62,956 nucleotides of DNA. Source: Clostridia bacterium (lineage in GTDB: Bacteria > Bacillota > Clostridia > Oscillospirales > Acutalibacteraceae). A program made the position numbers and the translations under genes. Positions 1 to 58,859 of the stretch are shown in pieces. Location: the NCBI GenBank assembly GCA_017415025.1, contig JAFQJH010000011.1, forward strand, positions 1-62,956, given 5' to 3'. Positions within the stretch are counted from its first letter, which is position 1; every line of letters starts with the position of its first letter. The notes below the pieces were generated by a model. The model worked only from the letters and a program-made list of their open reading frames with translations. It was not told the DNA's origin and made no database searches.

Positions 1-1644
1 AACGTGGCTAACGCTTGCGGGCATCCTGTTGCCTGCAGTTGCAACATCATTATGAACATAAGTTAATGAGCCGTTGTAATCGCTGACATAAACAGCACCC
101 GAACGGCCTAAATCAACAGTTTTGTATGTCCAGTAGTCTTCTATACCGGTGTTGTTGACGTAGCTCACCCATACCGAGGGGAAGAAATCGCTGTTGGTTG
201 AGTATTCAGAGGAACAAAAACGGCTCTTTTTTGTTACGCTTTCATCCGAGGATGCCAACATAATGCCGTTATTAACAGCGTTTTCGTACCAATTCTTAGC
301 TGCTTTTGTAACATCAAACACATACGGAGCCGCGGTTATTGTTGAACCAGATGTTGTGTTATTAACATACTTCTGATAGTCCAAAACCGTATACTGAGAC
401 AAGTTAGTTTTGCTCATTGGCTGATTGTTCCAATTTATTGTTTCACTCGTCCAGTTGTTTGTTCCGCAATCGTAGGCATAAATATAGTTTGTTGCTCCAC
501 TACCTGGGTCGTGTTCATATTGCAGTAAAACAAGCTTCGCATCAGTAACGATACTGCAGTCCGGTAAATCGGGAAGATTATACTTGATATATGTTCTTGT
601 TGTACCAAGACTGTTTTTGCCGACATAAAGATAGTGTGAATACATATGGCTATATGTAGGATCAGCAGTATCCACATAAACATCACTGATATCAGCGCGG
701 CTGACATCAAGCTTAACCGTCGGGTCAATAACAACCGGAAACTCACGGGATTTATCGTTAATCCATTCCTTATCAGCGGTTACGGTTACTATATATTTCT
801 CACCGTTCTGTTTGAACGAAATAGACACATCCGTTGACGTTTCACCTGTGGCATCGTACATTACCGGTGCTTCAACAAGAATAACGGGTTCAGTCGCTTT
901 CTTGCTTGTGTCATACAATCCGATAATACTTTCAGTTTCCATTTTCGGAACAAGCTTGCCGAAATCTGCATTAAAGTCATAAACATATTTACTCGTCTTT
1001 TTGTTGACGATAATGTTTTCCTTAACAGTTGACGGTGTAACGATATATTCAATATCAGTATCGCTGTATACATCATTATATTTTACACCTGACTTCTTGT
1101 TTTTAGCTTCCATCTTTTGAGCCTTTTTATCATCCTTCGTCTGCTCTTTCATTAACTTTGAAGACGTTAAATCCTCAACATCCTTTTTCTTACCTTTTGA
1201 TTTTTGGTATTTATCGCTTATCGGGGTTAATGAAATCTCATATCCGTCTGCATCATAAATTTTGACAGCTTCATCTGATAAAACCTGCGAGAAAGCAACC
1301 TTGTTTGACGCTTTTTCATTGACGTAATAATCTGTGCCGTCGATTGTCTTCTCGACAAGAGTGTTATCAATTTCTTTCCATTCTCCGTCTACCATATAGT
1401 GAACGGGCTCGGGATATGTGGCGGCAATAAATGTGCCGTCTGACAATCTGAAATGCTTTGTGCTTTCTGTACGTTCACTTTCAATTTCACAGATTATTGT
1501 TGCTTCTTCGGTTTCGTTGTCGGTAGTTGTTGATTCAAGATTTTCTAACTCTTGCGCAAATACTGACATAGGAAGAATTTCGATAATCAGAAGAATTGAT
1601 AGTATTATTGATATGATTCTTAAAAATATTTTCGACTTTTTCAT
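1..1644 (-). CDS. RHS/DNRLRE-type secreted surface protein, N-terminal part (runs off left edge)
   Basis: Partial: 548 codons are open from the ATG at 1644 to base 1, where the gene leaves the window. An AAGGAAAAG ribosome site lies upstream. The N-terminus is a signal peptide (MKKSKIFLRI, a hydrophobic run, then MSVFAQE). It is followed by a region with VHYMVDGEWKEIDNTL, the segment FPVVIDPTVKL, and a stalk-like DNRLRE-type domain (about residues 265-480, with NGIMLASSDEN near its end). The last residues (GIEDYWTYKTVDLGRSGAVY, then YNGSLTYVHND and NRMPASVSHV) match the entry into the RHS-repeat barrel of Gram-positive wall-associated proteins. Such proteins usually end in a variable toxin domain, which lies outside the window. 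Family assignment is by motif recall; toxin activity is inference. Confidence 0.75.
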   Translation of the reverse strand, partial: MKKSKIFLRIISIILSILLIIEILPMSVFAQELENLESTTTDNETEEATIICEIESERTESTKHFRLSDGTFIAATYPEPVHYMVDGEWKEIDNTLVEKTIDGTDYYVNEKASNKVAFSQVLSDEAVKIYDADGYEISLTPISDKYQKSKGKKKDVEDLTSSKLMKEQTKDDKKAQKMEAKNKKSGVKYNDVYSDTDIEYIVTPSTVKENIIVNKKTSKYVYDFNADFGKLVPKMETESIIGLYDTSKKATEPVILVEAPVMYDATGETSTDVSISFKQNGEKYIVTVTADKEWINDKSREFPVVIDPTVKLDVSRADISDVYVDTADPTYSHMYSHYLYVGKNSLGTTRTYIKYNLPDLPDCSIVTDAKLVLLQYEHDPGSGATNYIYAYDCGTNNWTSETINWNNQPMSKTNLSQYTVLDYQKYVNNTTSGSTITAAPYVFDVTKAAKNWYENAVNNGIMLASSDESVTKKSRFCSSEYSTNSDFFPSVWVSYVNNTGIEDYWTYKTVDLGRSGAVYVSDYNGSLTYVHNDVATAGNRMPASVSHV

Positions 1645-1753
1645 AATACTTTTCCTTTACTTAAATTTATTCTCCAAAAGGTTTCATACTAAGCACATTG
1701 CGATCACACCCCTTACAATAAAGACAAAATAGATTATAAAATGTAACATAAAA

Positions 1754-1783
1754 AAATAAGCTACGGAGAACCGCAGCTTATTT
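1754..1783 (-). terminator. Intrinsic terminator downstream of the zinc-ribbon protein gene
   Basis: A 13-base stem with one mismatch (1754-1766 against 1771-1783) and an AGAA loop. On the minus strand it is followed by a run of T. It would end the LRR/zinc-ribbon operon before the RHS-type gene. The rest of the 1645-1887 gap is AT-rich with nothing else recognised. Confidence 0.75.
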
Positions 1784-1887
1784 TATGCCTATATGAGATT
1801 TGTTTAGCTGCGTAAAAAACATTCAGCTTAATTTAATGCCACGTGTCTGTCAGATTGTATTTATGAGGATTCATTTAATGAAGCTTA

Positions 1888-2577
1888 TTAAGAACAATGA
1901 TGGCAAATATCTACCGGAACTAAAACACCACAATCAGGACATTTCTGTTCAGATATCCAAAATCTGATACAATCTTCCCTTCCACAATACTTACACTTTT
2001 TATGTGCTTCCTTTATTTCTTCATCTGAAACTGAATTGCCCCAAGAGACTATATTCCAACAACCGTTTGAATAATATTCTGCGCCTGGCTTAGGTGTGTA
2101 ACCCGTTGAACCGTCTGTGTAGTAATACAGAATTTTTTTGGTTGTAGTTTCTGTCGATGGTTCTGTTGCCGATTGAACTTTCGAAGGTTTTGTAGAAGAG
2201 GGCTTGGTTGGCACAGTATACTTTGTGGTTGTTGGAACTTTTGTGTTAGTCGTTCCTTTTGAAGTCTCAAAAGGTTTATTATCAATCGAAGCCTCCTTCT
2301 TTATCGTTGTCGGCATTATTGTGTGAAACTCTGTTACCTTTTCCTCTGCCACAGATTTTCCACTTGCCTCTTCCGTTTCTTCATATTCAAAAGGAAGATC
2401 GGTTGTCGCTTCGGTGTTTGAAAAGCCATCTGTTGATGAAGAGATTGAACTCTGATTGTCGGCAGGTGCAAATGAGGTAGAATCCTTGTTTTTTATTGTA
2501 ACAAAGATGGATACAACTAAAATACAAACAAAAGCAATTGCGATATATAATGTTTTCTTATTTATTTTCATAATCAC
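1888..2577 (-). CDS. Membrane-anchored protein with Ser/Thr-rich linker and C-terminal zinc-ribbon-like domain
   Basis: Not a family I recognise. It opens with one membrane segment (YIAIAFVCILVVSIFV) that could be an uncleaved anchor. About 110 residues rich in Thr, Ser, Glu and Lys follow, like a wall-spanning linker. It ends in about 75 residues with paired cysteines (CKYCGREDC, then CPDCGVLV and CHHC), which look like two zinc knuckles. The start is uncertain: GTG at 2577 is five bases after GAGAGG, while ATG at 2571 is eleven after it. The gene overlaps the end of the upstream LRR gene by up to 20 bases, so the two are probably co-translated. A cysteine knuckle placed outside the membrane is unusual. 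Function is unknown. Confidence 0.7.
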   Translation of the reverse strand: MIMKINKKTLYIAIAFVCILVVSIFVTIKNKDSTSFAPADNQSSISSSTDGFSNTEATTDLPFEYEETEEASGKSVAEEKVTEFHTIMPTTIKKEASIDNKPFETSKGTTNTKVPTTTKYTVPTKPSSTKPSKVQSATEPSTETTTKKILYYYTDGSTGYTPKPGAEYYSNGCWNIVSWGNSVSDEEIKEAHKKCKYCGREDCIRFWISEQKCPDCGVLVPVDICHHCS

Positions 2578-3706
2578 TGTTTCCTCTCTTCTTTAATAAT
2601 AGAATCACCGCCACACCTATTATTACGATCACAAGAAAAACAATTATGTAAGTTAAAACTGGTGTTTTTTCTTTCGGATAGTCCTGGTCTGATTCGATAT
2701 GGGTATCTGAAAATGCTGTGTCATCTTCCAAAAACTCAACATTTTCCTTGATCTTGTCGTTATGATCTTCAATAACCACATGTTCCCACTGCATAGAATT
2801 TCCGGCATAAGTAACTTTTGAGATGTTTTCTCCGTCAAAAGCCGAAGAGTCAATACTTTTTATACCCTTGCCTAATTCAATATTTGCAAGGAAATCACAA
2901 CAAAAGAATGCTCTGTATTCAATTGTTTCAACACTATCAGGAATATTAATGTTTACAATTGATGTATATGCAAAAGCTTCGTTTTCGATTATCTTTACAT
3001 TATTGCCAAGTGTAACATTGGTTAAATTTGAGCAAGATTTAAACATATTCGCTGGGATAGTTGTGATTCCGTTACCAATTACCACACTTTGCAATTTAGA
3101 TTCACTTTTATCTAATGCATTATAATCAATAATTTGTAATTTTTTGATATGTATAACACTATCTGGCACATAAAGCGACGTCAAAGATGTACATTCGAAA
3201 AACGCACTATCACCAATTGATATAAGACCTTCCGGCAACTCGATTTCGGTCATGTTTTCGCATTCGCAAAAAGCATAATCCGCAATAATTCTTGTCTCCG
3301 GTTTAATAACTACCTTTCCGTTTATATCAGTACTCTTAGTTGCAATCAAACAATTACTTAAATAAAGAATGCCATTTTCCCAATTAGACTCATTGTTATA
3401 GTACGCAGTACCATAAAAGGCTTCGCGTCCGATACTTGTTATGGATTCAGACAAAATAACGTTCTCTAATTCGCGACAATTCCTAAATGCATACCAACCT
3501 ATTTCAGTTACGGTATAACCATCAATTTCAGACGGAACTGTTAACGTGGTATCGGAACCAGTGTATTTTGTTATTTGTATTGTTCCATCGTCAAGAGCAC
3601 TATAATCATAATCACCTGAAGTTCGTGCCGACGGAGTGACCATAAATTGCACCATAGAAATAACGGTAATACAAATACATAGTGTGGTTGAAAGCAGTTT
3701 TTTCAT
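2558..3706 (-). CDS. BspA-like leucine-rich repeat surface protein with C-terminal membrane anchor
   Basis: 382 residues with a strong TAGGAGG site before the ATG. The N-terminus is a signal peptide (LSTTLCICITVISMVQFMV). Residues about 35-310 form LRR_5/BspA-type repeats with recurring cores such as VTEIGWYAFRNCRELENVIL, GLISIGDSAFFECTSLTSLY and IPDSVETIEYRAFFCCDFL. The end has one membrane helix (TYIIVFLVIVIIGVAVILLL) and a short basic tail, so the repeats should face outside. BspA-like proteins commonly act in adhesion or binding; this role is inferred. The leader carries a long palindrome and a terminator-like hairpin directly ahead of the ribosome site. Confidence 0.85.
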   Translation of the reverse strand: MKKLLSTTLCICITVISMVQFMVTPSARTSGDYDYSALDDGTIQITKYTGSDTTLTVPSEIDGYTVTEIGWYAFRNCRELENVILSESITSIGREAFYGTAYYNNESNWENGILYLSNCLIATKSTDINGKVVIKPETRIIADYAFCECENMTEIELPEGLISIGDSAFFECTSLTSLYVPDSVIHIKKLQIIDYNALDKSESKLQSVVIGNGITTIPANMFKSCSNLTNVTLGNNVKIIENEAFAYTSIVNINIPDSVETIEYRAFFCCDFLANIELGKGIKSIDSSAFDGENISKVTYAGNSMQWEHVVIEDHNDKIKENVEFLEDDTAFSDTHIESDQDYPKEKTPVLTYIIVFLVIVIIGVAVILLLKKRGNSDYENK

Positions 3707-3730
3707 CTTTTATCCTCCTAAAAATAAAAA

Positions 3731-3754
3731 AGTGCGCAGCCGAAGCTACGCACT
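3731..3754 (-). terminator. Terminator-like hairpin just ahead of the LRR gene ribosome site
   Basis: A 10-base stem with one mismatch and a CGAA loop. On the minus strand it is followed by TTTTTTATTTTT and then AGGAGG of the LRR gene. Because only a few bases separate it from the ribosome site, it sits inside the LRR transcript leader and could attenuate it. It may instead end transcripts arriving from the HTH gene. Confidence 0.6.
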
Positions 3755-3775
3755 AAAAAACGCATAGCTCTTTTG

Positions 3776-3891
3776 CTGCGACACAATTTTTCACGCACTT
3801 TAGCAAGTATGCGAAACAGAGCCTGCGCTTTTATCATGGGACAAAAGCGCACACTTATACTAAAATGCGTGATGATTCAATTGTGTCGCAG
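3776..3891. repeat. 116-base imperfect palindrome upstream of the LRR gene
   Basis: Outer arms are perfect over 13 bases (CTGCGACACAATT at 3776-3788 against its complement at 3879-3891). A second arm pair matches 12 of 13 (3791-3803 against 3860-3872). An inner stem (TGCGCTTTT against AAAAGCGCA, 3824-3832 and 3843-3851) closes a short loop. It is either a MITE-like element or a folded leader RNA. The remainder of the 3707-4058 gap is AT-rich and contains two other hairpins. Confidence 0.7.
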
Positions 3892-3971
3892 TTACATTAA
3901 ACCACAAAAAAAGAGCAATATATTTCTAATATAGAATTATAGGTAATTTAATTATATTGTCTGCAAAAATA

Positions 3972-4002
3972 AAAGAGCTGTAGTCTTGAACTACGGCTCT
4001 TT
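3972..4002 (-). terminator. Intrinsic terminator of the HTH gene
   Basis: Stem AAAGAGCTGTAGT against ACTACGGCTCTTT with one mismatch and a five-base loop. On the minus strand it is followed by TTTTATTTTTG. It lies 57 bases after the HTH stop codon. Confidence 0.75.
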
Positions 4003-4058
4003 ATACAGTAATATTTAGCTTAAATTCATAAAATGATTTATATCATATCTTTAAATCA

Positions 4059-4496
4059 TTATTTATTTTTAGTCTGTCGCTTTTTTCTCGGTGGGTATGG
4101 TGCATTTTCTGGAATCTGCCATCCTGCAGAATTCTTATACGCACCGGGAATTCTGCCGTCATCACACATATTTTTAACTGATGCTTTACATTTGCCGTGT
4201 AAAGTTGCATACTCCGATGCAGATATATACCGTTCTGCAACAATGATATCCTCGAAAGCTTTCTCACTAAGAATAATCAATTTATATGTGTTGTCAACAT
4301 ATGCAAGCGTCTCTCCTATAACATCTTCCATTGCAGGTGTAGATTGGTTCCAATAAGCCAGATTACCCTTGAATTTACCCGGAGTCCTAAATGAAGATAA
4401 CAATCTATTTAACGCACTATTATCTGCGGCTAAAACAGATCCGTTAGGACAGAGTATGAATTTCTTGTTGTTGTAAGCAATTAATCGTAATTTCAT
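4059..4496 (-). CDS. Small HTH (excisionase/MerR-like) DNA-binding protein
   Basis: 145 residues with ATG at 4496 behind AAAGGAA. The last third reads as an excisionase-type helix-turn-helix: YISASEYATLHGKCKASVKN, then MCDDGRIPGAYKN and GWQIPENAPYPP, ending in a basic tail (RKKRQTKNK). The N-terminal half (with KFILCPNGSVLAADNSALNR) is not a domain I can name. It is divergent from the nuclease-transposase gene with only 32 bases between the start codons. It could therefore regulate that gene or act as its accessory factor; this is inferred from position only. Confidence 0.75.
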   Translation of the reverse strand: MKLRLIAYNNKKFILCPNGSVLAADNSALNRLLSSFRTPGKFKGNLAYWNQSTPAMEDVIGETLAYVDNTYKLIILSEKAFEDIIVAERYISASEYATLHGKCKASVKNMCDDGRIPGAYKNSAGWQIPENAPYPPRKKRQTKNK

Positions 4497-4528
4497 AATA
4501 AAATTCCTTTCAGAAATGAGGTTATAAC

Positions 4529-7033
4529 TTGAAAAAGGACAGCCAAAACACTACTCTCGAAATACTTAAGAAAATGAAGCAGTTAAAATCTGCCATTGAT
4601 TCATCGAATGCAGATAAGCACCAAAATCAAATTAATAAAGATAGTCCATATTCTAATGATATCAATAATTATATTCTGACATATGATGAATTCTATTTCT
4701 ATCACTCTTTAAAGCTTAAAGAGGCTTTGGTGACACGCAAGGCTTTAGTAAGGGAAATTGATGTTGATTTATGGGTATCATCTCGTTCGTGCACAAACAG
4801 AGAACTTTTAATATTGGGTGAAGCCCCGTATGCATATGATTCTGAAGACGGGAGGATTGAATTGCATCATATAGGTCAATGTTTTGATGCTCCTTTTGTT
4901 GAACTGACCGCCAAAGAACATAACCAACAAGGGCATAATAAAACTTTACACCCATCCGATAAGTCCAGTTGGCGTAATATTGGGACTTTAGAAAAGGACT
5001 TCAATTCTGAACGCAGATTGTATTGGATGAAACGAGGAAAAGATGAAATATCTATTTATAATTCGGATGCTGATTTTCTGCTTTTAGAAAAAGCACAGTT
5101 TACAGCAAAAGAAGAGTTGAACGAGGGTATCAGAGAAACTATCGAAGTTTTGTTTCAAGAAAGTTCAGTGGAAGATCTACATTATTTTTCCGATTTAGCT
5201 CAAAGTTACGCTTTAGCTAAACAAGTCGGAGCTAATACTATTAGTGAATTCATTTACAAATTGAAAGCTGATCAACATAATAGTGAAAGAATATCGTGCT
5301 CATACTGTGGCTCTCAAGAATATTCATTGTACGGTTGTTACAGCACTTCGTCCGAGAAAGTACAACGATATAAATGCAAAAATTGCAACAAAGTGTTTAC
5401 TTCTGTTACAGAATCCTTGATTTCAGGTTGCAGTTTTTCTTTTCCTGAATGGTTAAAGTTTATTGACTGCTTATATAACGGTTATTCTGTTAAACAAACA
5501 GCTAAAAGCTGTAATGTTAGTGAAAAGACAGTTCATAATAACAGAATCAAGCTGTTTTATGCGTTAAAATTGCTTGATAACAAGATAAAACTTGCCGGAA
5601 ATATAGTTATAGATGAAACATATATACCTGTCAGTTATAAAGGAAATCATTCAAAACGTGACGATTTCGTAATGCCTCGGCAAGCTTTCAGACGTGGAGG
5701 AGAAAACCATAAAAGAGGTATTTCAGATAATCTAATATGCATTGTTTGTGCTTTAGATGATAGTGGAAATTCTGTTGCTCATGTAATCGGACCGGGTACA
5801 TCCTCATCAAAAAAGATAGGTTACGCTTTATACGACAGTCTTGATAAAGATAATGTCTTTTGTTTTTACTCTGATAAAGCAACAGCGATCAAAAAATTTG
5901 CTAATGATAATAAATTCCCTATCAAACAAGCTAAATTGATTTACAAAGCAAACAACAAAGTTGAGCAAGTAGAATTAAATTCTGACGTTTTTGAGGTTAA
6001 CAGGTATATACAGAGTATAAATGCATACCATTCCAGGTTGAAACGGTTTTTAAATAAATTTTCTGGTATATCTTCAAGATATTTATCGGGTTATTTGTAT
6101 TTGTTTGCATGGAAAGACAGGAACAAAAACAGAGATCAAGTAGAGGCATACAAAGAACTATTTGAAATATTAACAGAACCAAAGTCTTTTGTACCCATAG
6201 AAAATATTATTAAATACAATTACTTGCCTGATGCAACAAACCTAACATATGATTTGAATTTTTATAAATTGAAAAATGATGAAAGAGCACGCGCCATCTA
6301 TGCTCGCCATGCTTCAGGCGAAACTTTAAAAAGCATAGCTAAAGATTACAATGTTACACTTCAAGCAATTAGTAAAACAATTATTAATTACAGAAAACAT
6401 GGGTTGGCCTACAAGACACAACGGGATTTAAAGAAAGAAGAACAATTATATACAAACAAAATCCGGTATCGCGATGATATCCTTAGACGAAATTGGAGTA
6501 TTTATCACAAGAAGCTTTCGTGGAAAGGCAGTGCTAAAGATTTTGAGCAAGCTATGATGTCCGAATACCGTATATCTCGACAGACGGTCAAAAACATTGT
6601 AGCACAAATGCAAAGAGTTGAAGAATTACAAAAAGAATTCTATATATTTGAGGATATTCAATATCGTTCTTTAGAAGAAATATATAAGTCTGTATATAAC
6701 GATTTTTTAATTTTACATATAGGTGAAAAACTGTCAAAAAACAAAAGCAGTGAAATATTGGCTGAACGATATAGTTTTACAAAACAAAACATCTTAAGAA
6801 TTGTTAAGGTGATGAGTAGTGACAACGAACATTATTTTGAAGGTAAAAAAGGATCTACCATTGAGACAACCAATAGAGACAAAGCGCTGTTTATTGACTT
6901 TTTAAGGTGGGATGGTTCGAAAACTGATTTTTACAAATGGTCATCAACAAAATACGGAATATCTGAGCAATACATTTCTTGGATTATCAAATTATGCTGC
7001 ATAGCCGACCCGCGAAGATATGATATGGCGTAA
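4529..7033 (+). CDS. LHH/HNH nuclease-like domain fused to IS1595-type DDE transposase with C-terminal HTH repeats
   Basis: 834 residues, over twice the usual IS1595 transposase length. The start is TTG at 4529, eight bases after GAGG. Residues about 70-170 resemble the LHH type of HNH toxin nuclease: RIELHHIGQ (H113, H114), PFVELTAKEHN (H131), then H136/H141 and FNSERRLYWMKRG. Residues 257-286 are a CxxC...CxxC zinc ribbon. Residues 357-530 are an IS1595/ISXO2-like catalytic core: IDETYIPVSYKGNH (D362), FYSDKA (D449) and NAYHSRLKRF (N498/H501). The C-terminus has an HTH at about 590-625, then three similar modules (about 660-695, 725-760, 785-820) sharing a W-G-S...DF...Y-IS-Q pattern. The region is AT-rich. 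The fusion is seen in one uninterrupted frame; nuclease and transposase activity are inferred. Confidence 0.85.
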   Translation: MKKDSQNTTLEILKKMKQLKSAIDSSNADKHQNQINKDSPYSNDINNYILTYDEFYFYHSLKLKEALVTRKALVREIDVDLWVSSRSCTNRELLILGEAPYAYDSEDGRIELHHIGQCFDAPFVELTAKEHNQQGHNKTLHPSDKSSWRNIGTLEKDFNSERRLYWMKRGKDEISIYNSDADFLLLEKAQFTAKEELNEGIRETIEVLFQESSVEDLHYFSDLAQSYALAKQVGANTISEFIYKLKADQHNSERISCSYCGSQEYSLYGCYSTSSEKVQRYKCKNCNKVFTSVTESLISGCSFSFPEWLKFIDCLYNGYSVKQTAKSCNVSEKTVHNNRIKLFYALKLLDNKIKLAGNIVIDETYIPVSYKGNHSKRDDFVMPRQAFRRGGENHKRGISDNLICIVCALDDSGNSVAHVIGPGTSSSKKIGYALYDSLDKDNVFCFYSDKATAIKKFANDNKFPIKQAKLIYKANNKVEQVELNSDVFEVNRYIQSINAYHSRLKRFLNKFSGISSRYLSGYLYLFAWKDRNKNRDQVEAYKELFEILTEPKSFVPIENIIKYNYLPDATNLTYDLNFYKLKNDERARAIYARHASGETLKSIAKDYNVTLQAISKTIINYRKHGLAYKTQRDLKKEEQLYTNKIRYRDDILRRNWSIYHKKLSWKGSAKDFEQAMMSEYRISRQTVKNIVAQMQRVEELQKEFYIFEDIQYRSLEEIYKSVYNDFLILHIGEKLSKNKSSEILAERYSFTKQNILRIVKVMSSDNEHYFEGKKGSTIETTNRDKALFIDFLRWDGSKTDFYKWSSTKYGISEQYISWIIKLCCIADPRRYDMA

Positions 7034-7035
7034 TT

Positions 7036-8085
7036 TTAGGCAACTACGGGAATGGCGGGCAAATCCAAAATGTCTGATGTTTTTGCGTGAGTGTTTGATG
7101 AAGTTATATATGAAAGTAACTCTGTCTTGAGATTGGTATTCTCAATTTTTTTGTAGTTTTCAATCCAAATAAAAAGATTAACATAGTGATTAAGATATTT
7201 CGTGGAGACCCCATTATATCCTCTGAGGAAACGATGAAAACGATTATGTAAGTTGTTTACATTTTGTATGTGGTAAATGCCTTTAACTTCCGGAGGACTA
7301 GACATGCTTTTAGGCCTTACATGAGCCATAAGCTGTATTAAGTCAATGTTATCAAATCTGCTGAAATAGTTTTTAATTCCAATAGCTTTATCAGAAATAA
7401 CAATTGAGTCTGGAATAATGCGGTTATCAAAAGCGTGAGAAAGCATAGCAATAGTAGGTTGACCTTTTCCAAGAACTTCCCCATAGGTTTGACCATTTCT
7501 CTCATGTGCAACCATCACACAAGCTCTTGATCCGGTCTGAGCACGACTATCTGTACCTCGTCTATACGGAGCACGGGGCATTGTAAAGTTTTTGCTATTC
7601 TTATGATTACCCTTATAGCTAATAGAGATGAATGTTTCATCTGCTTCGACAATTCCACTAAGTGCTCTATTCTCCTGATCCTTTTGAAGCGCATTTAAAA
7701 TTTTATGTCTCCAAATGAAAGCTGTGCGAACACTGATTTTACACTCTTCAGAGCATTTTTGTAAAGAGGAACCGTTCAATAATAATTCAACATATTTTCG
7801 CCATGTGTTAATGTCACAATGAGTATTCGAAATAACAGAGTAAGAAGTTTCGGTGAATGTGCTGCCGCAGTTACTACATTTATATCTCTGTTTTCCGTTT
7901 TTATCTTTACCAAACTTCACAATGTTTTTACTCTCGCATCTTCTACAAGAATTGACAACAACAGTTGTGGTTTTGGAATCGTTATTGACAAGTTTGAGTA
8001 TATGTAGAATCTCTTCCGAAACAACTTTTAATTCATCAGGATTTAAGCGTTTCGCCTGATTGATAACGGTATCCAATCTGCTCAT
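7036..8085 (-). CDS. IS1595-family (ISXO2-like) transposase
   Basis: 349 residues. The ATG at 8085 is preferred because AAGGAG lies just ahead of it; the ATG at 8103 lies upstream of that site. A zinc ribbon (CRRCESKN and YKCSNCGSTF) is followed by an HTH-like segment and the catalytic core: EADETFISISYKGNH (first Asp), VISDKAIGI (second Asp) and IQNVNNLHNRFHRFLRGYNG with Asn/His in the third position typical of this family. It aligns by eye with the core of the 834-residue protein, including YKGNH and MPR..-.RRG, so the two are paralogues. Its stop is two bases from the stop of that convergent gene, so it is not a free-standing IS. A consensus promoter precedes it. Confidence 0.9.
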   Translation of the reverse strand: MSRLDTVINQAKRLNPDELKVVSEEILHILKLVNNDSKTTTVVVNSCRRCESKNIVKFGKDKNGKQRYKCSNCGSTFTETSYSVISNTHCDINTWRKYVELLLNGSSLQKCSEECKISVRTAFIWRHKILNALQKDQENRALSGIVEADETFISISYKGNHKNSKNFTMPRAPYRRGTDSRAQTGSRACVMVAHERNGQTYGEVLGKGQPTIAMLSHAFDNRIIPDSIVISDKAIGIKNYFSRFDNIDLIQLMAHVRPKSMSSPPEVKGIYHIQNVNNLHNRFHRFLRGYNGVSTKYLNHYVNLFIWIENYKKIENTNLKTELLSYITSSNTHAKTSDILDLPAIPVVA

Positions 8086-8121
8086 ATTTTTACTCCTTGA
8101 CATATCAAATTCTTTAATTAT

Positions 8122-8150
8122 ATTATAGCCGATTAGCTACTTTTTGTCAA
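8122..8150 (-). promoter_or_regulatory. Consensus sigma-A promoter for the IS1595-type transposase
   Basis: TTGACA and TATAAT separated by 17 bases on the minus strand, both hexamers perfect, ending 37 bases before the ATG. A perfect housekeeping promoter is notable for a transposase gene. Confidence 0.8.
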
Positions 8151-8224
8151 GCGTAAAATGCATAAAAATACAGTATTTTCAAGGGTTTTGAGCTCTTTTT
8201 CACCTATCAACAACAAAGTTCAAA

Positions 8225-8248
8225 AGAGCCCCTCGAGGGGAAGGCTCT
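8225..8248 (-). terminator. Terminator-like hairpin downstream of the lipoprotein gene
   Basis: AGAGCC pairs with GGCTCT around an inner palindrome (CCCCTCGAGGGG). On the minus strand it is followed by TTTTG. It lies beside a family-B repeat and may belong to it. Confidence 0.4.
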
Positions 8249-8270
8249 GAAAATCACTGCTAATCAAGGC

Positions 8271-8334
8271 TTCTCCTTGAGGAGAGGCTCCGCCGTAGGC
8301 GGTGGTGAGGTGTAGGTTGCAACGCAACCGTTAT
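8271..8334. repeat. Dispersed repeat family B, copy 1
   Basis: A 64-base segment (containing GAGGCTCCGCCGTAGGCGGT and GGTTGCAACGCAACC) repeated almost exactly at 45356-45419. It is rich in self-complementary stretches. It fills most of the gap between the transposase promoter and the lipoprotein gene. Confidence 0.85.
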
Positions 8335-8366
8335 TATAAATCATCCCCACAAATTAAAATTTGTAA

Positions 8367-9113
8367 TTAAGCCAAAACTTTTTCGAAATACTGCTGATAT
8401 TCATCGGAAAAGGCTATACAATCATAGCCGTTATCATAATAATCATCAGCGTAATAATACTTACCGTTCTGACAGCAAATCAAAACAATCTGATGATACT
8501 CAATCAGCCAATCCTTGCTGATTGCTTTGATTGTATATTGCTCGCAATTCTCTTCAATAAAAACGGTTTCTTTGCTGAACACCTTCGGCTCAATGTCGTT
8601 GTCATATGTCCAATCATAATTTACTTCGCTCTCTGTATAAACATCAACCATATAATCGACATCTATTTCCGATGTAACAATTTTTCCGTCATCGCGGTAA
8701 CAGTAATAATCATAATTAGCAAAATTATGATAATATTCGAGAAATGCCTTTTCATCAGAATTTCTGACGAAAAGCTGCAGATTAATATTATCCGCAAGCA
8801 CCTGAACACCTGAATATGACTGAAATTCATAAAATGTATGGTGTTCTGCATAATTTGCGACCGCTTTTATCGGAGTTGCCAATTCTCTGACTTTAATGTC
8901 AAAGCCCGTGTTCTCAAAATAAACATCCGTATACTTTTCGCCGTTTACAATGATATCCGTAACCTCAACCGGCTGTTCAATCTCATCGTTAAGAACAGCC
9001 TCCACGCCTGTTTCCACCGCCGGCAAGCGGTAATAAAAATCCGGCTCAAAGAAATCACAACCACAGAGTAAAACTGTTGACAGCACAATAATAAAGGCCG
9101 CTAATTTTTTCAT
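8367..9113 (-). CDS. Lipoprotein of unknown function
   Basis: 248 residues with an AGGGGAG site before the ATG. A lipoprotein signal peptide is clear: MKKLAAFIIVLSTV, then LLCGC with the lipidated Cys19. The mature part is acidic and rich in Tyr and Asp (EYYHNFANYDYYCYRDDGK, YYYADDYYDNGYD). No domain is recognised. It starts 11 bases after the stop of the HAAS-domain gene, so the two form an operon, and the lipoprotein may work at the membrane with that protein. Confidence 0.75.
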   Translation of the reverse strand: MKKLAAFIIVLSTVLLCGCDFFEPDFYYRLPAVETGVEAVLNDEIEQPVEVTDIIVNGEKYTDVYFENTGFDIKVRELATPIKAVANYAEHHTFYEFQSYSGVQVLADNINLQLFVRNSDEKAFLEYYHNFANYDYYCYRDDGKIVTSEIDVDYMVDVYTESEVNYDWTYDNDIEPKVFSKETVFIEENCEQYTIKAISKDWLIEYHQIVLICCQNGKYYYADDYYDNGYDCIAFSDEYQQYFEKVLA

Positions 9114-9124
9114 TTTTATCTCCC

Positions 9125-10474
9125 CTAATCAAGTATTGAATCCTTTTCAATCAATCTTCCGTTTTGCTCGGTTATATAGTATTGGTTAGAGCCAAAAATA
9201 AAGAATTCCGGTCCGAAAAAGTGAATATTGAAATATCGGCAATCGCTCTCTGCATCAAAGCTGTACTGCAAATCAAAATAATTTATCCCTCTGAAAATAC
9301 CCATACATTCCGCAATTGTGTTATCGTGCGATATCAGCCTGAAGTTTTCATCAATCAAATTGAAGGTATCTGAATCTGTCAGTATATAACCCTTGTGATT
9401 AAACAGCGATTTACGGCTGAAAAACCCGAGAATGTTGGTGGAAGAAAATGTGATTTCATCGAAAGTGATTTCCGCATCAAAAGATTTGTCTTTACATACA
9501 GAAAATGTAAGTATCGCTACACCTTTCTGTCCTTTCAGCTTCGTTATTTTCTGACCGTTTTCAGCCACTTCTGCTTTCTGTGTAAAATCAACATCATTAA
9601 AGCAAGCGAGTATTTCTTCAACATCGCCCTTGAACTGATTTCCGTCATTTTGGATAAATTCAAAAAACCTTGTTCGCAGGTCGGAAAATTCCTGTGCGTA
9701 GGCTTCTTCCTGCCTTTCGACCTCATGGTAAGTAACTGCAAAAGTGACACTGAACGCAAGAATAAGCACAGCAAATACAGCACAGACAAAAGTCTGTATC
9801 TTTTTGCAGCTCCTGAACGGTGAATTGTTAGTACGGATTGCAAGAATGACTGCTGTGACCGAAAATATACAAATTAAAACCGAAACGGCAACCGCCAGAA
9901 TATACGGAAGAGTCAAGTCAAACCACAGCTCGTCCGCCAGCAGCATTTTACTTGAAAAATACTGCAATTTACCTGTTATAAGGTGCGTCAACGCCAGAGA
10001 AAACCACCATACGCAGGGCAAGCCCGAAACCAATGTTATTACAGATGTTACGGCAGGTGTTTTTCGTTTGTAATTAAACGCGAGCCATATTCCCCAGAAC
10101 ATAAGCAGGGCGAAAAGCGAAAAGTGCTTAAGCCACACAAAGCTGTTGTTCATACCGTAATCCGGGATGTAGGCCGGGACGAATAATTTCGATATAAAAT
10201 TCCCGACAACTGCAATATGGTAAGCGACCAGCACAAGGTATTGCTTAACCGATAAATTATGAATCTTTCCCAAGTTTTCCGCCACGAGGCGCGGAGGCCC
10301 CATATCTTCGAGTGCCTTATATTTTGCGGTCCTCTCGTCATAGCCGATTTCGACATAGAAGTCGGCGGAATCCTGCAAGTGGCTTTCAAGCTCGGCGCAA
10401 ATCGGCGCGTGGAGCTTTTTGTTTTTTATGTTCTGTTTTACGACGTTTAAGTAGTCGTCGAAGTTGTAGTTCAT
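9125..10474 (-). CDS. HAAS (DUF1700-like) domain membrane protein, copy 1
   Basis: 449 residues. The ATG at 10474 is chosen because AGAGGTG precedes it and because it matches the start of the paralogue. Residues 1-75 (MNYNFDDYLNVVKQNIKNKK, then ICAELESHLQDSADFYVEIG and ALEDMGPP) are the HAAS/permease-prefix domain often found next to PadR regulators. Five hydrophobic segments follow (about residues 75-250, for example FSLFALLMFWGIWLAF and YILAVAVSVLICIFSVTAVI). A C-terminal domain of about 190 residues is probably outside. The domain is thought to work in PadR-linked signalling, but the role of this protein is unknown. The lipoprotein gene follows directly. Confidence 0.75.
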   Translation of the reverse strand: MNYNFDDYLNVVKQNIKNKKLHAPICAELESHLQDSADFYVEIGYDERTAKYKALEDMGPPRLVAENLGKIHNLSVKQYLVLVAYHIAVVGNFISKLFVPAYIPDYGMNNSFVWLKHFSLFALLMFWGIWLAFNYKRKTPAVTSVITLVSGLPCVWWFSLALTHLITGKLQYFSSKMLLADELWFDLTLPYILAVAVSVLICIFSVTAVILAIRTNNSPFRSCKKIQTFVCAVFAVLILAFSVTFAVTYHEVERQEEAYAQEFSDLRTRFFEFIQNDGNQFKGDVEEILACFNDVDFTQKAEVAENGQKITKLKGQKGVAILTFSVCKDKSFDAEITFDEITFSSTNILGFFSRKSLFNHKGYILTDSDTFNLIDENFRLISHDNTIAECMGIFRGINYFDLQYSFDAESDCRYFNIHFFGPEFFIFGSNQYYITEQNGRLIEKDSILD

Positions 10475-10583
10475 TGTTTCACCTCTTGCTCTCTTTTTTA
10501 TCAATCCTCAGTCCTTCGGACAGCTCCTTTCCAAAGGAGCCCGCACAGAGATAGTGACAGATAAAATTAATCTACCCTAAAAT

Positions 10584-10903: not shown

Positions 10904-12199
10904 TCAAGGAAAATCGTCATAAGCGGTTTTGATAATTTTACCCGAATCAACCGTAACATAGAAAGTGAAATTATCAAATATACTTTCACCAACAATAAAG
11001 TATGTTGAGTATATGACCTCATCATCCTCGGCATCATATCTGTAGAACAACAAGAGATTTTCATCTTTTACCACATCGAAAAACTTCGCTGCATCATCAC
11101 CAATATTTAAATCCATCAACGGGTTATCATCCCATGTGTAATGATCACTTTCCTGTTTCCAATCCGAGTCGCTGTAATATTCTACCGTATTTATATACGA
11201 TACGATCTCAATCCTGATTGAGCCGTCTTCCATAACACAGATATAAAAATGCGGAAAAGCCTCTGATTTTTCACCGATGATTGCCGACAGATGCCGTATG
11301 CATCGCGTGTCATCTATGTGTTCATATTCTTTAAATTCAAGATAATCAAAATGCGCGAGAACACCGTCAATATCGTCCGCTGTTATCTTATCTTTTTCAA
11401 GGCAGTAGTCACAGAAATCCTCAACAACACTGCACCATTTCTCTTTTTCCTCAAGGTCAGCTTGGTGCAGATATATATCCGTTACTTGCGCACTAGCAAA
11501 AACAATGCACAGTAAGGGAATCGCGACGATACTGAAAACTCGTTTAAAGTTGACTGAAGAGATATTCGGAGTGCGGATGTAGATTGAAATTTTACAGTAT
11601 GTAAAAATCAACAAGCCGATAACTGCAACCGTAAGAAGTAAAGCAATAATCGAAATAATCATATTCTGATTTTTTGTGCCGTACGCAATTTCCTGCATCG
11701 TTCTGTAATCCGCCCATTGACCCGTCAAGCGAGCAACGGTTTCACTCCAATAGGAAATCAGGACTTTGAAATTTATCACAGCAGAAATAACCGCCATACG
11801 TGCAGGTAGTATTCTTTTATGACACACAGACATAATATATCCTGCAATAACGGGAACAAGCATAAAGAAAAAAGCATGACTGTACGAGATGCTTATAACA
11901 GGACTTAGCAACGCCATTCCGATTACGGGAAGCATAAGCACGATGTATACGACTTCAGCAAATATCTGTCCCGCAGACAGCTTATGAAGCTTTGCAAGAT
12001 CTTCGGCAACATAATGCGGAGGCCCCATATCTTCGAGTGCCTTATATTTTGCTGTCACCTCGTCATAGCCGATTTCGACATAGAAGTCGGCGGAGTCCTG
12101 CAAGTGGCTTTCAAGCTCGGCACAAATCGGCGCGTGGAGCTTTTTGTTTTTTATGTTCTGTTTTACGACGTTTAAGTAATCGTCGAAGTTATAATTCAT
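10904..12199 (-). CDS. HAAS (DUF1700-like) domain membrane protein, copy 2
   Basis: 431 residues. The ATG at 12199 follows a GGGGGAAATAAA site; longer upstream frames lack a site. The first 60 or so residues are almost identical to copy 1 (DEVTAKYK here, DERTAKYK there). The rest differs, with its own membrane segments (IFAEVVYIVLMLPVIGMALL, FFFMLVPVIAGYIM, MIISIIALLLTVAVIGLLIF, VFSIVAIPLLCIVFASA) and an acidic exterior domain. It sits 23 bases after the PadR gene. In this family PadR is thought to control or pair with the HAAS protein; the partner signal is unknown. Confidence 0.75.
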   Translation of the reverse strand: MNYNFDDYLNVVKQNIKNKKLHAPICAELESHLQDSADFYVEIGYDEVTAKYKALEDMGPPHYVAEDLAKLHKLSAGQIFAEVVYIVLMLPVIGMALLSPVISISYSHAFFFMLVPVIAGYIMSVCHKRILPARMAVISAVINFKVLISYWSETVARLTGQWADYRTMQEIAYGTKNQNMIISIIALLLTVAVIGLLIFTYCKISIYIRTPNISSVNFKRVFSIVAIPLLCIVFASAQVTDIYLHQADLEEKEKWCSVVEDFCDYCLEKDKITADDIDGVLAHFDYLEFKEYEHIDDTRCIRHLSAIIGEKSEAFPHFYICVMEDGSIRIEIVSYINTVEYYSDSDWKQESDHYTWDDNPLMDLNIGDDAAKFFDVVKDENLLLFYRYDAEDDEVIYSTYFIVGESIFDNFTFYVTVDSGKIIKTAYDDFP

Positions 12200-12222
12200 T
12201 TTATTTCCCCCTATGTGAGACA

Positions 12223-12567
12223 TCAGACAGTCAGGGGCTGTGTTCCGAGGCACATAACTTTTTCGACAGAGTTGGAATAGACCTTCCACTCCTCGGTTTT
12301 TTCCTGCAGGAGCTTCTTGCCTTTTTTGGTGATACGGTAGTATTTGCGTTTTCTGCCGTCAACCTCCTGCCAATAGCTTTCCACCTGACGCTCCTTTTCC
12401 ATTGCGTGAAGAATCGGATAGAGTGTGCCCTCGTTAAGGTGGAAAACATCGTCCGAGGCAAGGCGGATTTGCTTTACAATCTCGTAGCCGTACATATCGC
12501 CCGAATTGATTGCGGACAGGACGAGTAATGATGTGCTTCCCTTTAATAACTCTTTGCTGATTTTCAT
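12223..12567 (-). CDS. PadR-family transcriptional regulator
   Basis: 114 residues. The ATG at 12567 is fixed by an AGGAGG site; the open frame continues upstream only because there is no stop. The winged-helix core is typical: LLKGSTSLLVLSAINSGDMY, then GYEIVKQI, LNEGTLYPILHAMEKE, SYWQEVDGRKRKYYRITKKG and a C-terminal helix. PadR proteins are repressors binding near their own promoters. The gene heads an operon with the HAAS-domain protein and has a good promoter upstream. Confidence 0.9.
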   Translation of the reverse strand: MKISKELLKGSTSLLVLSAINSGDMYGYEIVKQIRLASDDVFHLNEGTLYPILHAMEKERQVESYWQEVDGRKRKYYRITKKGKKLLQEKTEEWKVYSNSVEKVMCLGTQPLTV

Positions 12568-44964: not shown

Positions 44965-45070
44965 ATTTGCCAACGGCAAATATTTCACTTTGCGTAAGCA
45001 AAATTTCATGCGCCGTAAGGCGTATATCACATCTGCGTAGCAGATATTTCACTGCAACGCACAGCGTTGC
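44965..45070. repeat. Tandem short-hairpin array 2
   Basis: Five consecutive hairpins: ATTTGCC/GGCAAAT, TTTGC/GCAAA, ATGCGCC/GGCGTAT (one GT pair), ATCTGC/GCAGAT and GCAACGC/GCGTTGC, with 3-4 base loops. Spacers are close to ATTTCAC. The layout is the same as at 12674 and 58777 with different stems. Confidence 0.82.
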
Positions 45071-58745: not shown

Positions 58746-58776
58746 AGCCGTTAACATAACGACTTTACAATGAAAT

Positions 58777-58859
58777 CCGACCTCACGGTCGGATGAAATC
58801 TGCTTTCGCAGATGAAATATCGGCTCTGCCGATATGAAATATTTGCCCTGACAGGCAAA
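58777..58859. repeat. Tandem short-hairpin array 3
   Basis: Four hairpins: CCGACC/GGTCGG, ATCTGC/GCAGAT, ATATCGGC/GCCGATAT and TTTGCC/GGCAAA with loops of 3-6 bases and ATGAAAT-like spacers. The ATCTGC/GCAGAT unit also occurs in array 2. It fills most of the 58746-58933 gap. Confidence 0.82.

Follow-up and report, generated by a model that had tools for sequence, protein, structure and literature searches.

The gene at positions 4529..7033 (+) of contig JAFQJH010000011.1 from a gut Clostridia bacterium (GCA_017415025.1), analyzed here as a window of 62,956 nt (1-62,956, the whole stretch of DNA under study), encodes an LHH nuclease domain fused to an IS1595-type transposase, and very probably belongs to a family of transposons that combine two transposases of this type with the LHH nuclease. 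The large IS1595-type transposase is designated Tnp1, the smaller Tnp2. Beyond the original prediction made for this gene, the genes neighboring Tnp1 belong with it to one element, whose ends can be recognized. Four such elements, from three or more genera, have the LHH nuclease built into their transposition machinery, and they apparently represent a rare and undescribed family of large mobile elements with two such transposases.

Tnp1 comprises 834 amino acids (aa), read from a TTG start without an internal stop. Profile searches placed both the LHH (HNH/EndoVII) nuclease domain at residues 89-170 (4793..5038, +; Pfam PF14411, E 1.4e-13, 51.3 bits against a cut-off of 23.3) and the IS1595-type DDE core at residues 303-532 (5435..6124, +; NCBIfam transpos_IS1595, NF033547, E 1.6e-28, 100.1 bits against 75) above cut-off, and residues 583-627 (6275..6409, +) match the helix-turn-helix (HTH) profile HTH_23 (Pfam, E 6.5e-11); the open frame and these matches bear out the original prediction of an LHH nuclease, an IS1595-type DDE transposase, and HTH segments within a single 834-codon frame. 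Fold searches with the whole predicted protein returned RNase-H/DDE matches. Ahead of the core lies a four-cysteine zinc ribbon (C257-C286; 5297..5386, +), for which the Pfam and NCBIfam profiles stayed below their cut-offs (NF050000, 16.8 bits against 28). The ribbon and an Asp/Asp/Asn-His catalytic set had both been predicted, and the corresponding residues (C257/C260/C283/C286 and D362/D449/N498/H501) are kept in 7/7 rows of an alignment of four Tnp1 and three Tnp2 proteins. The C-terminus carries three modules (6461..7018, +; residues 645-703, 710-768, and 776-830) that are helical in the predicted model. Their claimed similarity holds for modules 1 and 3, which are clear repeats (score reached by 0/500 shuffles), and is weak for module 2, whose score against module 3 was matched by 9/500 shuffles and that against module 1 by 69/500.

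A search with residues 1-252 of Tnp1 found matches in 6/398 genomes of the family: its own, G297, G256, and three with ordinary LHH toxin genes. G297, which belongs to another genus, encodes an 830-aa LHH-Tnp1 homologue of the same build (41% identity over its length), a second protein with the predicted domain order. In G256, the parts are encoded by separate overlapping genes: one for a small HTH protein, one for a 207-aa protein of no known family, one for a 442-aa protein with the LHH domain at its C-terminus, and one for a 646-aa Tnp1 with a long C-terminus; the same four split genes occur in G693, which was found by a search of the order (394 genomes) with the HTH protein. The split LHH and Tnp1 genes overlap by 4 nt in G256 and are 5 nt apart in G693. 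The LHH thus accompanies Tnp1 in 4/4 elements found, fused in two (own genome and G297) and as an adjacent gene in two (G256 and G693).

The neighbors of Tnp1 recur with it. Tnp2 (7036..8103, −; 355 aa; NF033547, E 1.4e-43, 149.3 bits against 75) is convergent with Tnp1 in the window, their stop codons lying 2 nt apart, and has an InsA-type zinc-ribbon profile above cut-off (Pfam). The Pfam profile DDE_Tnp_IS1595 (cut-off 27) scores 39.2 for this Tnp2 and 30.2 for that of G693, and falls below cut-off for the Tnp1 of G297 (14.2) and of G256 (16.4). The HTH protein (4059..4496, −; 145 aa), divergent from Tnp1 and with an HTH_17 match below cut-off (Pfam), has a counterpart in all four elements, with 29% identity in G256 and a full-length match in G693 (E 1.5e-34). 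G297 keeps the neighbors on both sides, the divergent HTH protein (57%) and the convergent Tnp2 (54%), the latter overlapping its Tnp1 by 4 nt.

Profile comparisons with two sequences per profile aligned residues 28-169 of the fused proteins, that is their LHH part, with the C-terminal part of the split LHH protein (97.9% probability, E 4.7e-13), and residues 230-636 of the fused Tnp1 with the split Tnp1 (E 1.8e-34). At its N-terminus the split LHH protein is similar to the HTH protein (80.9%, E 1.2e-5), and in G693 this part carries a weak HTH_17 match of its own, so that the split nuclease probably includes DNA-binding segments itself. A phylogeny of 13 IS1595-type proteins placed the four Tnp1 in one clade (99/96) and the three Tnp2 in another (97/96); ISSag10, ISAma5, and three other transposases fell outside both.

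The four elements were obtained from samples of 398, 394, 391, and 275 genomes (family, order, class), which overlap, so the counts are not additive. When the class (391 genomes) was searched with the fused protein, the own genome and G789 alone were returned, the latter with an ordinary IS1595. The HTH-protein profile matched 185/394 genomes, nearly all via the common HTH; among the matches listed, full-length undivided ones were those of G000 and G693. A search of the order (275 genomes) with the split LHH led back to its own genome only, and within the genus of G693 the count was 1/24. Viral contigs held no relatives. Plasmids gave no match to the split LHH, and the 104 plasmid records returned for the fused protein all matched through the IS1595 core, 0 of them covering 80% of the query; from phages came 4 records, by the IS1595 core only, with no match to the LHH query. 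The original prediction knew of no described transposase with this domain, and our search of the open-licence literature, with most subscription journals outside it, likewise yielded no description of an LHH-bearing or a two-transposase IS1595-type element.

The element of G693 is a complete transposon of 22,457 bp (G693:C13:91620 to 114076). Its flanks, of which the left is the one beside the HTH gene, are some 22.5 kb apart and adjoin directly in the congeners G652 and G673, which represent empty sites. The element is bounded by perfect terminal inverted repeats (TIRs; 24/24 bp, GGGCTCTTATCTATTTCGGGAGAC), with GAAAAC (6 bp) on both outer sides as the target duplication; this becomes AAAA (4 bp) if the adjoining C/G is counted into the repeat, and 8 bp is excluded. 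The LHH and Tnp1 genes lie at the left end, and a 388-aa Tnp2 lies at the right end, reading inward. The cargo includes a ClpX/ClpB-type AAA ATPase, an M48 peptidase, a 2093-aa RHS protein, and others, among them a leucine-rich-repeat (LRR)-like protein recognized by eye and a WYL-like protein below cut-off. A simple inverted-repeat scan around the four loci gave nothing useful, since the cargo separates the two ends. The end of the G256 element resembles the G693 inverted repeat at 24/30 positions, with a maximum of 19 in 50 shuffles of the locus. Directly after Tnp1 of G693 follow a 185-aa protein and the ClpX/ClpB-like AAA ATPase (L096 779-3006), which may belong to the cargo or regulate transposition; G1137:C76 has a relative of the ATPase. 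To the left of the G297 element are a tyrosine recombinase and a TrwB/TraG-like coupling ATPase (L009 4000-5097, −; L101 1594-2916, −), either cargo or part of a neighboring conjugative element.

In the window, the right terminal sequence of the element, GGGCTCTTTTGAACTTTGTTG when read inward (8211..8231, −), resembles the right end of G297 (GGGCTATAATGAACATTTGTGTTG, inward); no second copy was present in the own assembly at ≤3 mismatches. Comparison with seven other copies indicates that the element is inserted into a dispersed repeat (8229..8364): these copies, from the own genome and two congeners, run leftward across the point matching 8229, whereas the window copy stops there, its left part cut off by the element. 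This repeat, ~135 bp in the window and some 190 bp where intact, contains hairpins and is present several times in the own genome and more often in the congener G1128. G1128 keeps window positions 1-1829 and those from 8371 rightward, and positions 1830-8370 are unmatched there bar short leader-repeat pieces (3706-3786) and the dispersed repeat; as the two retained flanks are on separate contigs, G1128 does not provide an empty site here. Genes for a 229-aa protein and an LRR/BspA-like protein (1888..3706, −), unmatched in G1128, are possible cargo, being inside the element only if its left end lies further left. The contig begins within an RHS-type gene (1-1656, −) that encodes the N-terminal part of a secreted protein with a CBM96 match. 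Its product has 34% identity to the N-terminal 549 residues of the G693 RHS cargo protein (E 5e-78), the region is common to G1128 at 81%, and the gene could be either cargo or host DNA. Because the contig begins inside this gene, the left end of the element may lie off the contig; it would show a GGGCTCTTTTGAAC-like sequence and a short matching duplication beside the missing half of the repeat.

Tnp2 has a sigma-70 consensus promoter, TTGACA-17-TATAAT (8122..8150, −), with 12/12 consensus bases in the window and G297 and 11/12 in G693. In 3/3 Tnp2 promoters (window, G297, and G693), the spacer contains an operator-like palindrome, TAGCN6GCTA (8126..8139 in the window), and judged from these promoters it is the position of the palindrome, not its number, that is telling. 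A second palindrome follows in G693, and two copies with one mismatch precede the HTH gene at the opposite end, making a single regulator for both element ends likely.

We propose that Tnp1 would be the main transposase of cargo-carrying, TIR-bounded transposons whose composite transposase consists of a toxin-derived LHH, the large Tnp1 to which it is fused or adjacent, the smaller Tnp2, and the small HTH regulator. The zinc ribbon and HTH modules would guide the DDE subunits onto the TIRs, where these would perform the 3′ cuts and strand transfer; the LHH, tethered there by its fusion or through an HTH of its own, would cut the other (5′, non-transferred) strand and so release the element as a cut-and-paste intermediate, and Tnp2 would be tuned by the HTH protein and the TAGCN6GCTA operator. 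A role of the LHH like that of TnsA beside TnsB is suggested by its location inside or beside Tnp1 and by the division of labor in Tn7, for which the cited passages describe 3′ cuts by TnsB and 5′ cuts by TnsA that release the element (PMC8649781, PMC8188705). Drawn from this analogy, second-strand cleavage by the LHH is a tentative assignment, which we hold to be slightly less probable than its opposite; taken as a whole, the proposal of a family of LHH, Tnp1, Tnp2, and HTH transposons with second-strand cleavage by the LHH seems to us evenly poised between right and wrong. Of the functions suggested in the original prediction, help in cutting donor or target DNA would fit best, given the LHH with Tnp1 in 4/4 elements. 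A wider formulation is doubtful, though worth stating: a third kind of heteromeric transposase beside TnsA-TnsB systems, in which a toxin-derived nuclease would cut the second strand for two IS1595-type DDE subunits, the larger bearing the nuclease, and which would land in hairpin repeats and carry toxin genes perhaps ancestral to that nuclease.

These elements offer a direct case in which the recruitment of a warfare enzyme to DNA transposition can be tested. If the proposal is true, a Tn7-like division of labor would have been arrived at with unrelated parts, and IS1595-type enzymes would drive 20-kb cargo elements. The compact nuclease-transposase fusion with its second DDE partner is a new candidate for studies of strand-cleavage mechanisms.

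The two resolved targets, the window repeat and the G693 site, are both hairpins with an 8-bp stem and a 4-nt loop (z −3.8 and −3.7), and such hairpins cover 1% of window positions, or 5.5% of positions once genes are crudely masked. Branched or target DNA is a frequent substrate of HNH-fold nucleases, and the hairpin targets favor a different role for the LHH, as a target-site or hairpin-cutting nuclease that nicks or opens a palindromic target while the DDE subunits cleave all ends. It should be noted, however, that the two sites are the only ones and lie in intergenic repeats or terminators, where insertions are common, that the insertion point within the hairpin differs between them, and that G297 and G256 are known by one flank; we consider this role unlikely.

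The conservation of the nuclease and the genes around it bear on a further alternative. PF14411 scores above cut-off in all four elements, and the toxin-type segment common to LHH proteins starts near Tnp1 residue 30. The predicted model has pLDDT (predicted local distance difference test) block means of 72-96 for residues 31-170, its confident part showing strands at 109-114 and 123-127 followed by helices. Among the 50 rows each listed by Foldseek and VIA for whole Tnp1, no HNH-type nuclease appeared, both lists being filled by the DDE core, and sequence searches of solved structures gave no match for whole Tnp1 or for the LHH segment. The LHH motif appears as N, LHH, E, H, H, W in the passage cited (PMC3482391). 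In our alignment N90, L112-H113-H114, H141, and W166 are kept in 7/7 LHH rows and H131 in 6/7, the toxin row of G289 having a histidine one column off; homologues lacking the LHH histidines, which would have spoken against the original assignment, were not seen among them. The elements N, LHH, H, H, W are found in fused and split rows alike, and the E of the motif, if E130 is meant, is E130 in the fused and D in the split proteins.

The same source, in the part cited, describes the LHH domain as largely restricted to polymorphic toxins (PMC3482391), and it is conceivable that the LHH is a guard or addiction toxin directed against element-losing cells or competing elements and silenced by proteins of the element; the HTH protein or the ORF191/207 protein could serve as antitoxin, and the G693 cargo includes an RHS protein, a toxin-type carrier. 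Among ordinary LHH toxin genes, however, 5/6 examined adjoin a SUKH/SMI1 immunity gene by profile or annotation (G289, G029, R. albus, B. velezensis, and B. subtilis), and the sixth (G076) does so by eye only, whereas no SUKH match was found among the scanned neighbors of the transposon LHH genes, the G297 HTH protein not having been scanned separately. This lack of a matched immunity gene disfavors a toxin, and the guard or toxin function offered in the original prediction accordingly fits less well than DNA cutting. The LHH also forms the N-terminus of a transposase in two elements, which is odd for a free toxin, and Tnp1 has no delivery domain among its Pfam and NCBIfam matches. PADLOC gave one weak, sub-domain match each for Tnp1 and the split Tnp1 of G693, over short stretches that we took as shared HTH/ribbon segments. 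A toxin function of the LHH in these elements is improbable.

Several observations weigh against the proposed composite transposase with a strand-cutting LHH. The number of elements is four, with both ends known in one; in the window, positions 1-4529 hold neither a good match to the right terminal sequence nor the missing half of the target repeat (the left end of G297 was also not found). The palindrome is ordinary in number (0.9 expected by composition in the window and 1 found; 0.3 expected in the other loci). The G693 Tnp2 sits on a long branch (1.65), which makes its placement less sure, and Tnp2 alone could be the catalytic transposase. In the split LHH proteins E111/E125 are lost and D replaces E130; the ORF191/207 protein beside them, without known family, could be an antitoxin. 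The fused LHH has 36% identity to the G289 toxin against only 24-25% to the split LHH, and a single origin of the four transposon LHH domains is neither shown nor rejected by the tree (support 47/36); on these two grounds, there may have been two separate captures of the LHH, perhaps serving different ends. The single copy in an 84%-complete genome and its missing left end suggest that the window locus is domesticated or dead, its fusion a relic and the mobility of the family residing elsewhere; this reading is nevertheless hard to credit with an open frame, all catalytic residues kept, a right end abutting a repeat that is intact elsewhere, a consensus Tnp2 promoter, and a contig start that may place the left end off the contig.

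Three further features of the window were recorded. The leader of gene 2558-3706 (3698-3904, −) is hairpin-rich, recurs ahead of other genes in the genus, and was matched in 15/18 genomes, the own included; Rfam assigned it no family at the gathering threshold, and nothing at the element, and the leader is possibly an undescribed leader RNA. Two Gut-1 RNAs (RF01706) lie at 58768-58845 (+) and 44977-45054 (−), with 60.8 and 59.5 bits (Rfam). The genes at 9125-10504 and 10904-12289 (−) encode tandem paralogous membrane proteins with near-identical N-termini (~90% DNA identity over some 220 bp); this family, also multiplied in the congener G1128, seems to grow by recombination.

Among known systems, the IS1595 family provides the closest named relative of Tnp1, ISSag10 (35% over residues 257-523), and shares with the elements the DDE core profile, the four-cysteine ribbon, the D/D/N-H residues, and terminal inverted repeats. 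Its members are described, in the passage cited, as usually having an 8-bp target-site duplication and a single transposase gene (PMC8101967). In contrast, Tnp1 has the N-terminal LHH and a long C-terminal HTH region, two transposase genes are found in the window, G297, and G693 (the G256 contig is too short to tell), and the one resolved member, G693, is a 22-kb cargo element with a 6-bp duplication. With the Tox-LHH toxins (PF14411), the elements share the whole segment of residues ~30-170 with N, LHH, H, H, W; they differ in having no secretion or RHS/WXG carrier attached and no SUKH gene found, and in the fusion or operonic arrangement with a transposase.

Tn7 and Tn7-like elements have in common with those described here a nuclease and a DDE transposase that are fused or adjacent, defined ends, and a large cargo. 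Two IS1595-type proteins take the place of TnsB, and an AAA protein, ClpX/ClpB-like, occurs in G693 only. TnsA, TnsB, and TniQ families were not among the listed Pfam/NCBIfam matches of Tnp1, Tnp2, and the HTH protein, nor among the Pfam matches of the G693 and G256 genes scanned. The LHH is predicted to have an HNH/EndoVII fold, whereas TnsA has a restriction-endonuclease fold. By analogy, and if the role proposed for the LHH holds, this would be a DDE transposon that works like Tn7 while standing outside the Tn7 family, and that departs from IS1595 in two features.

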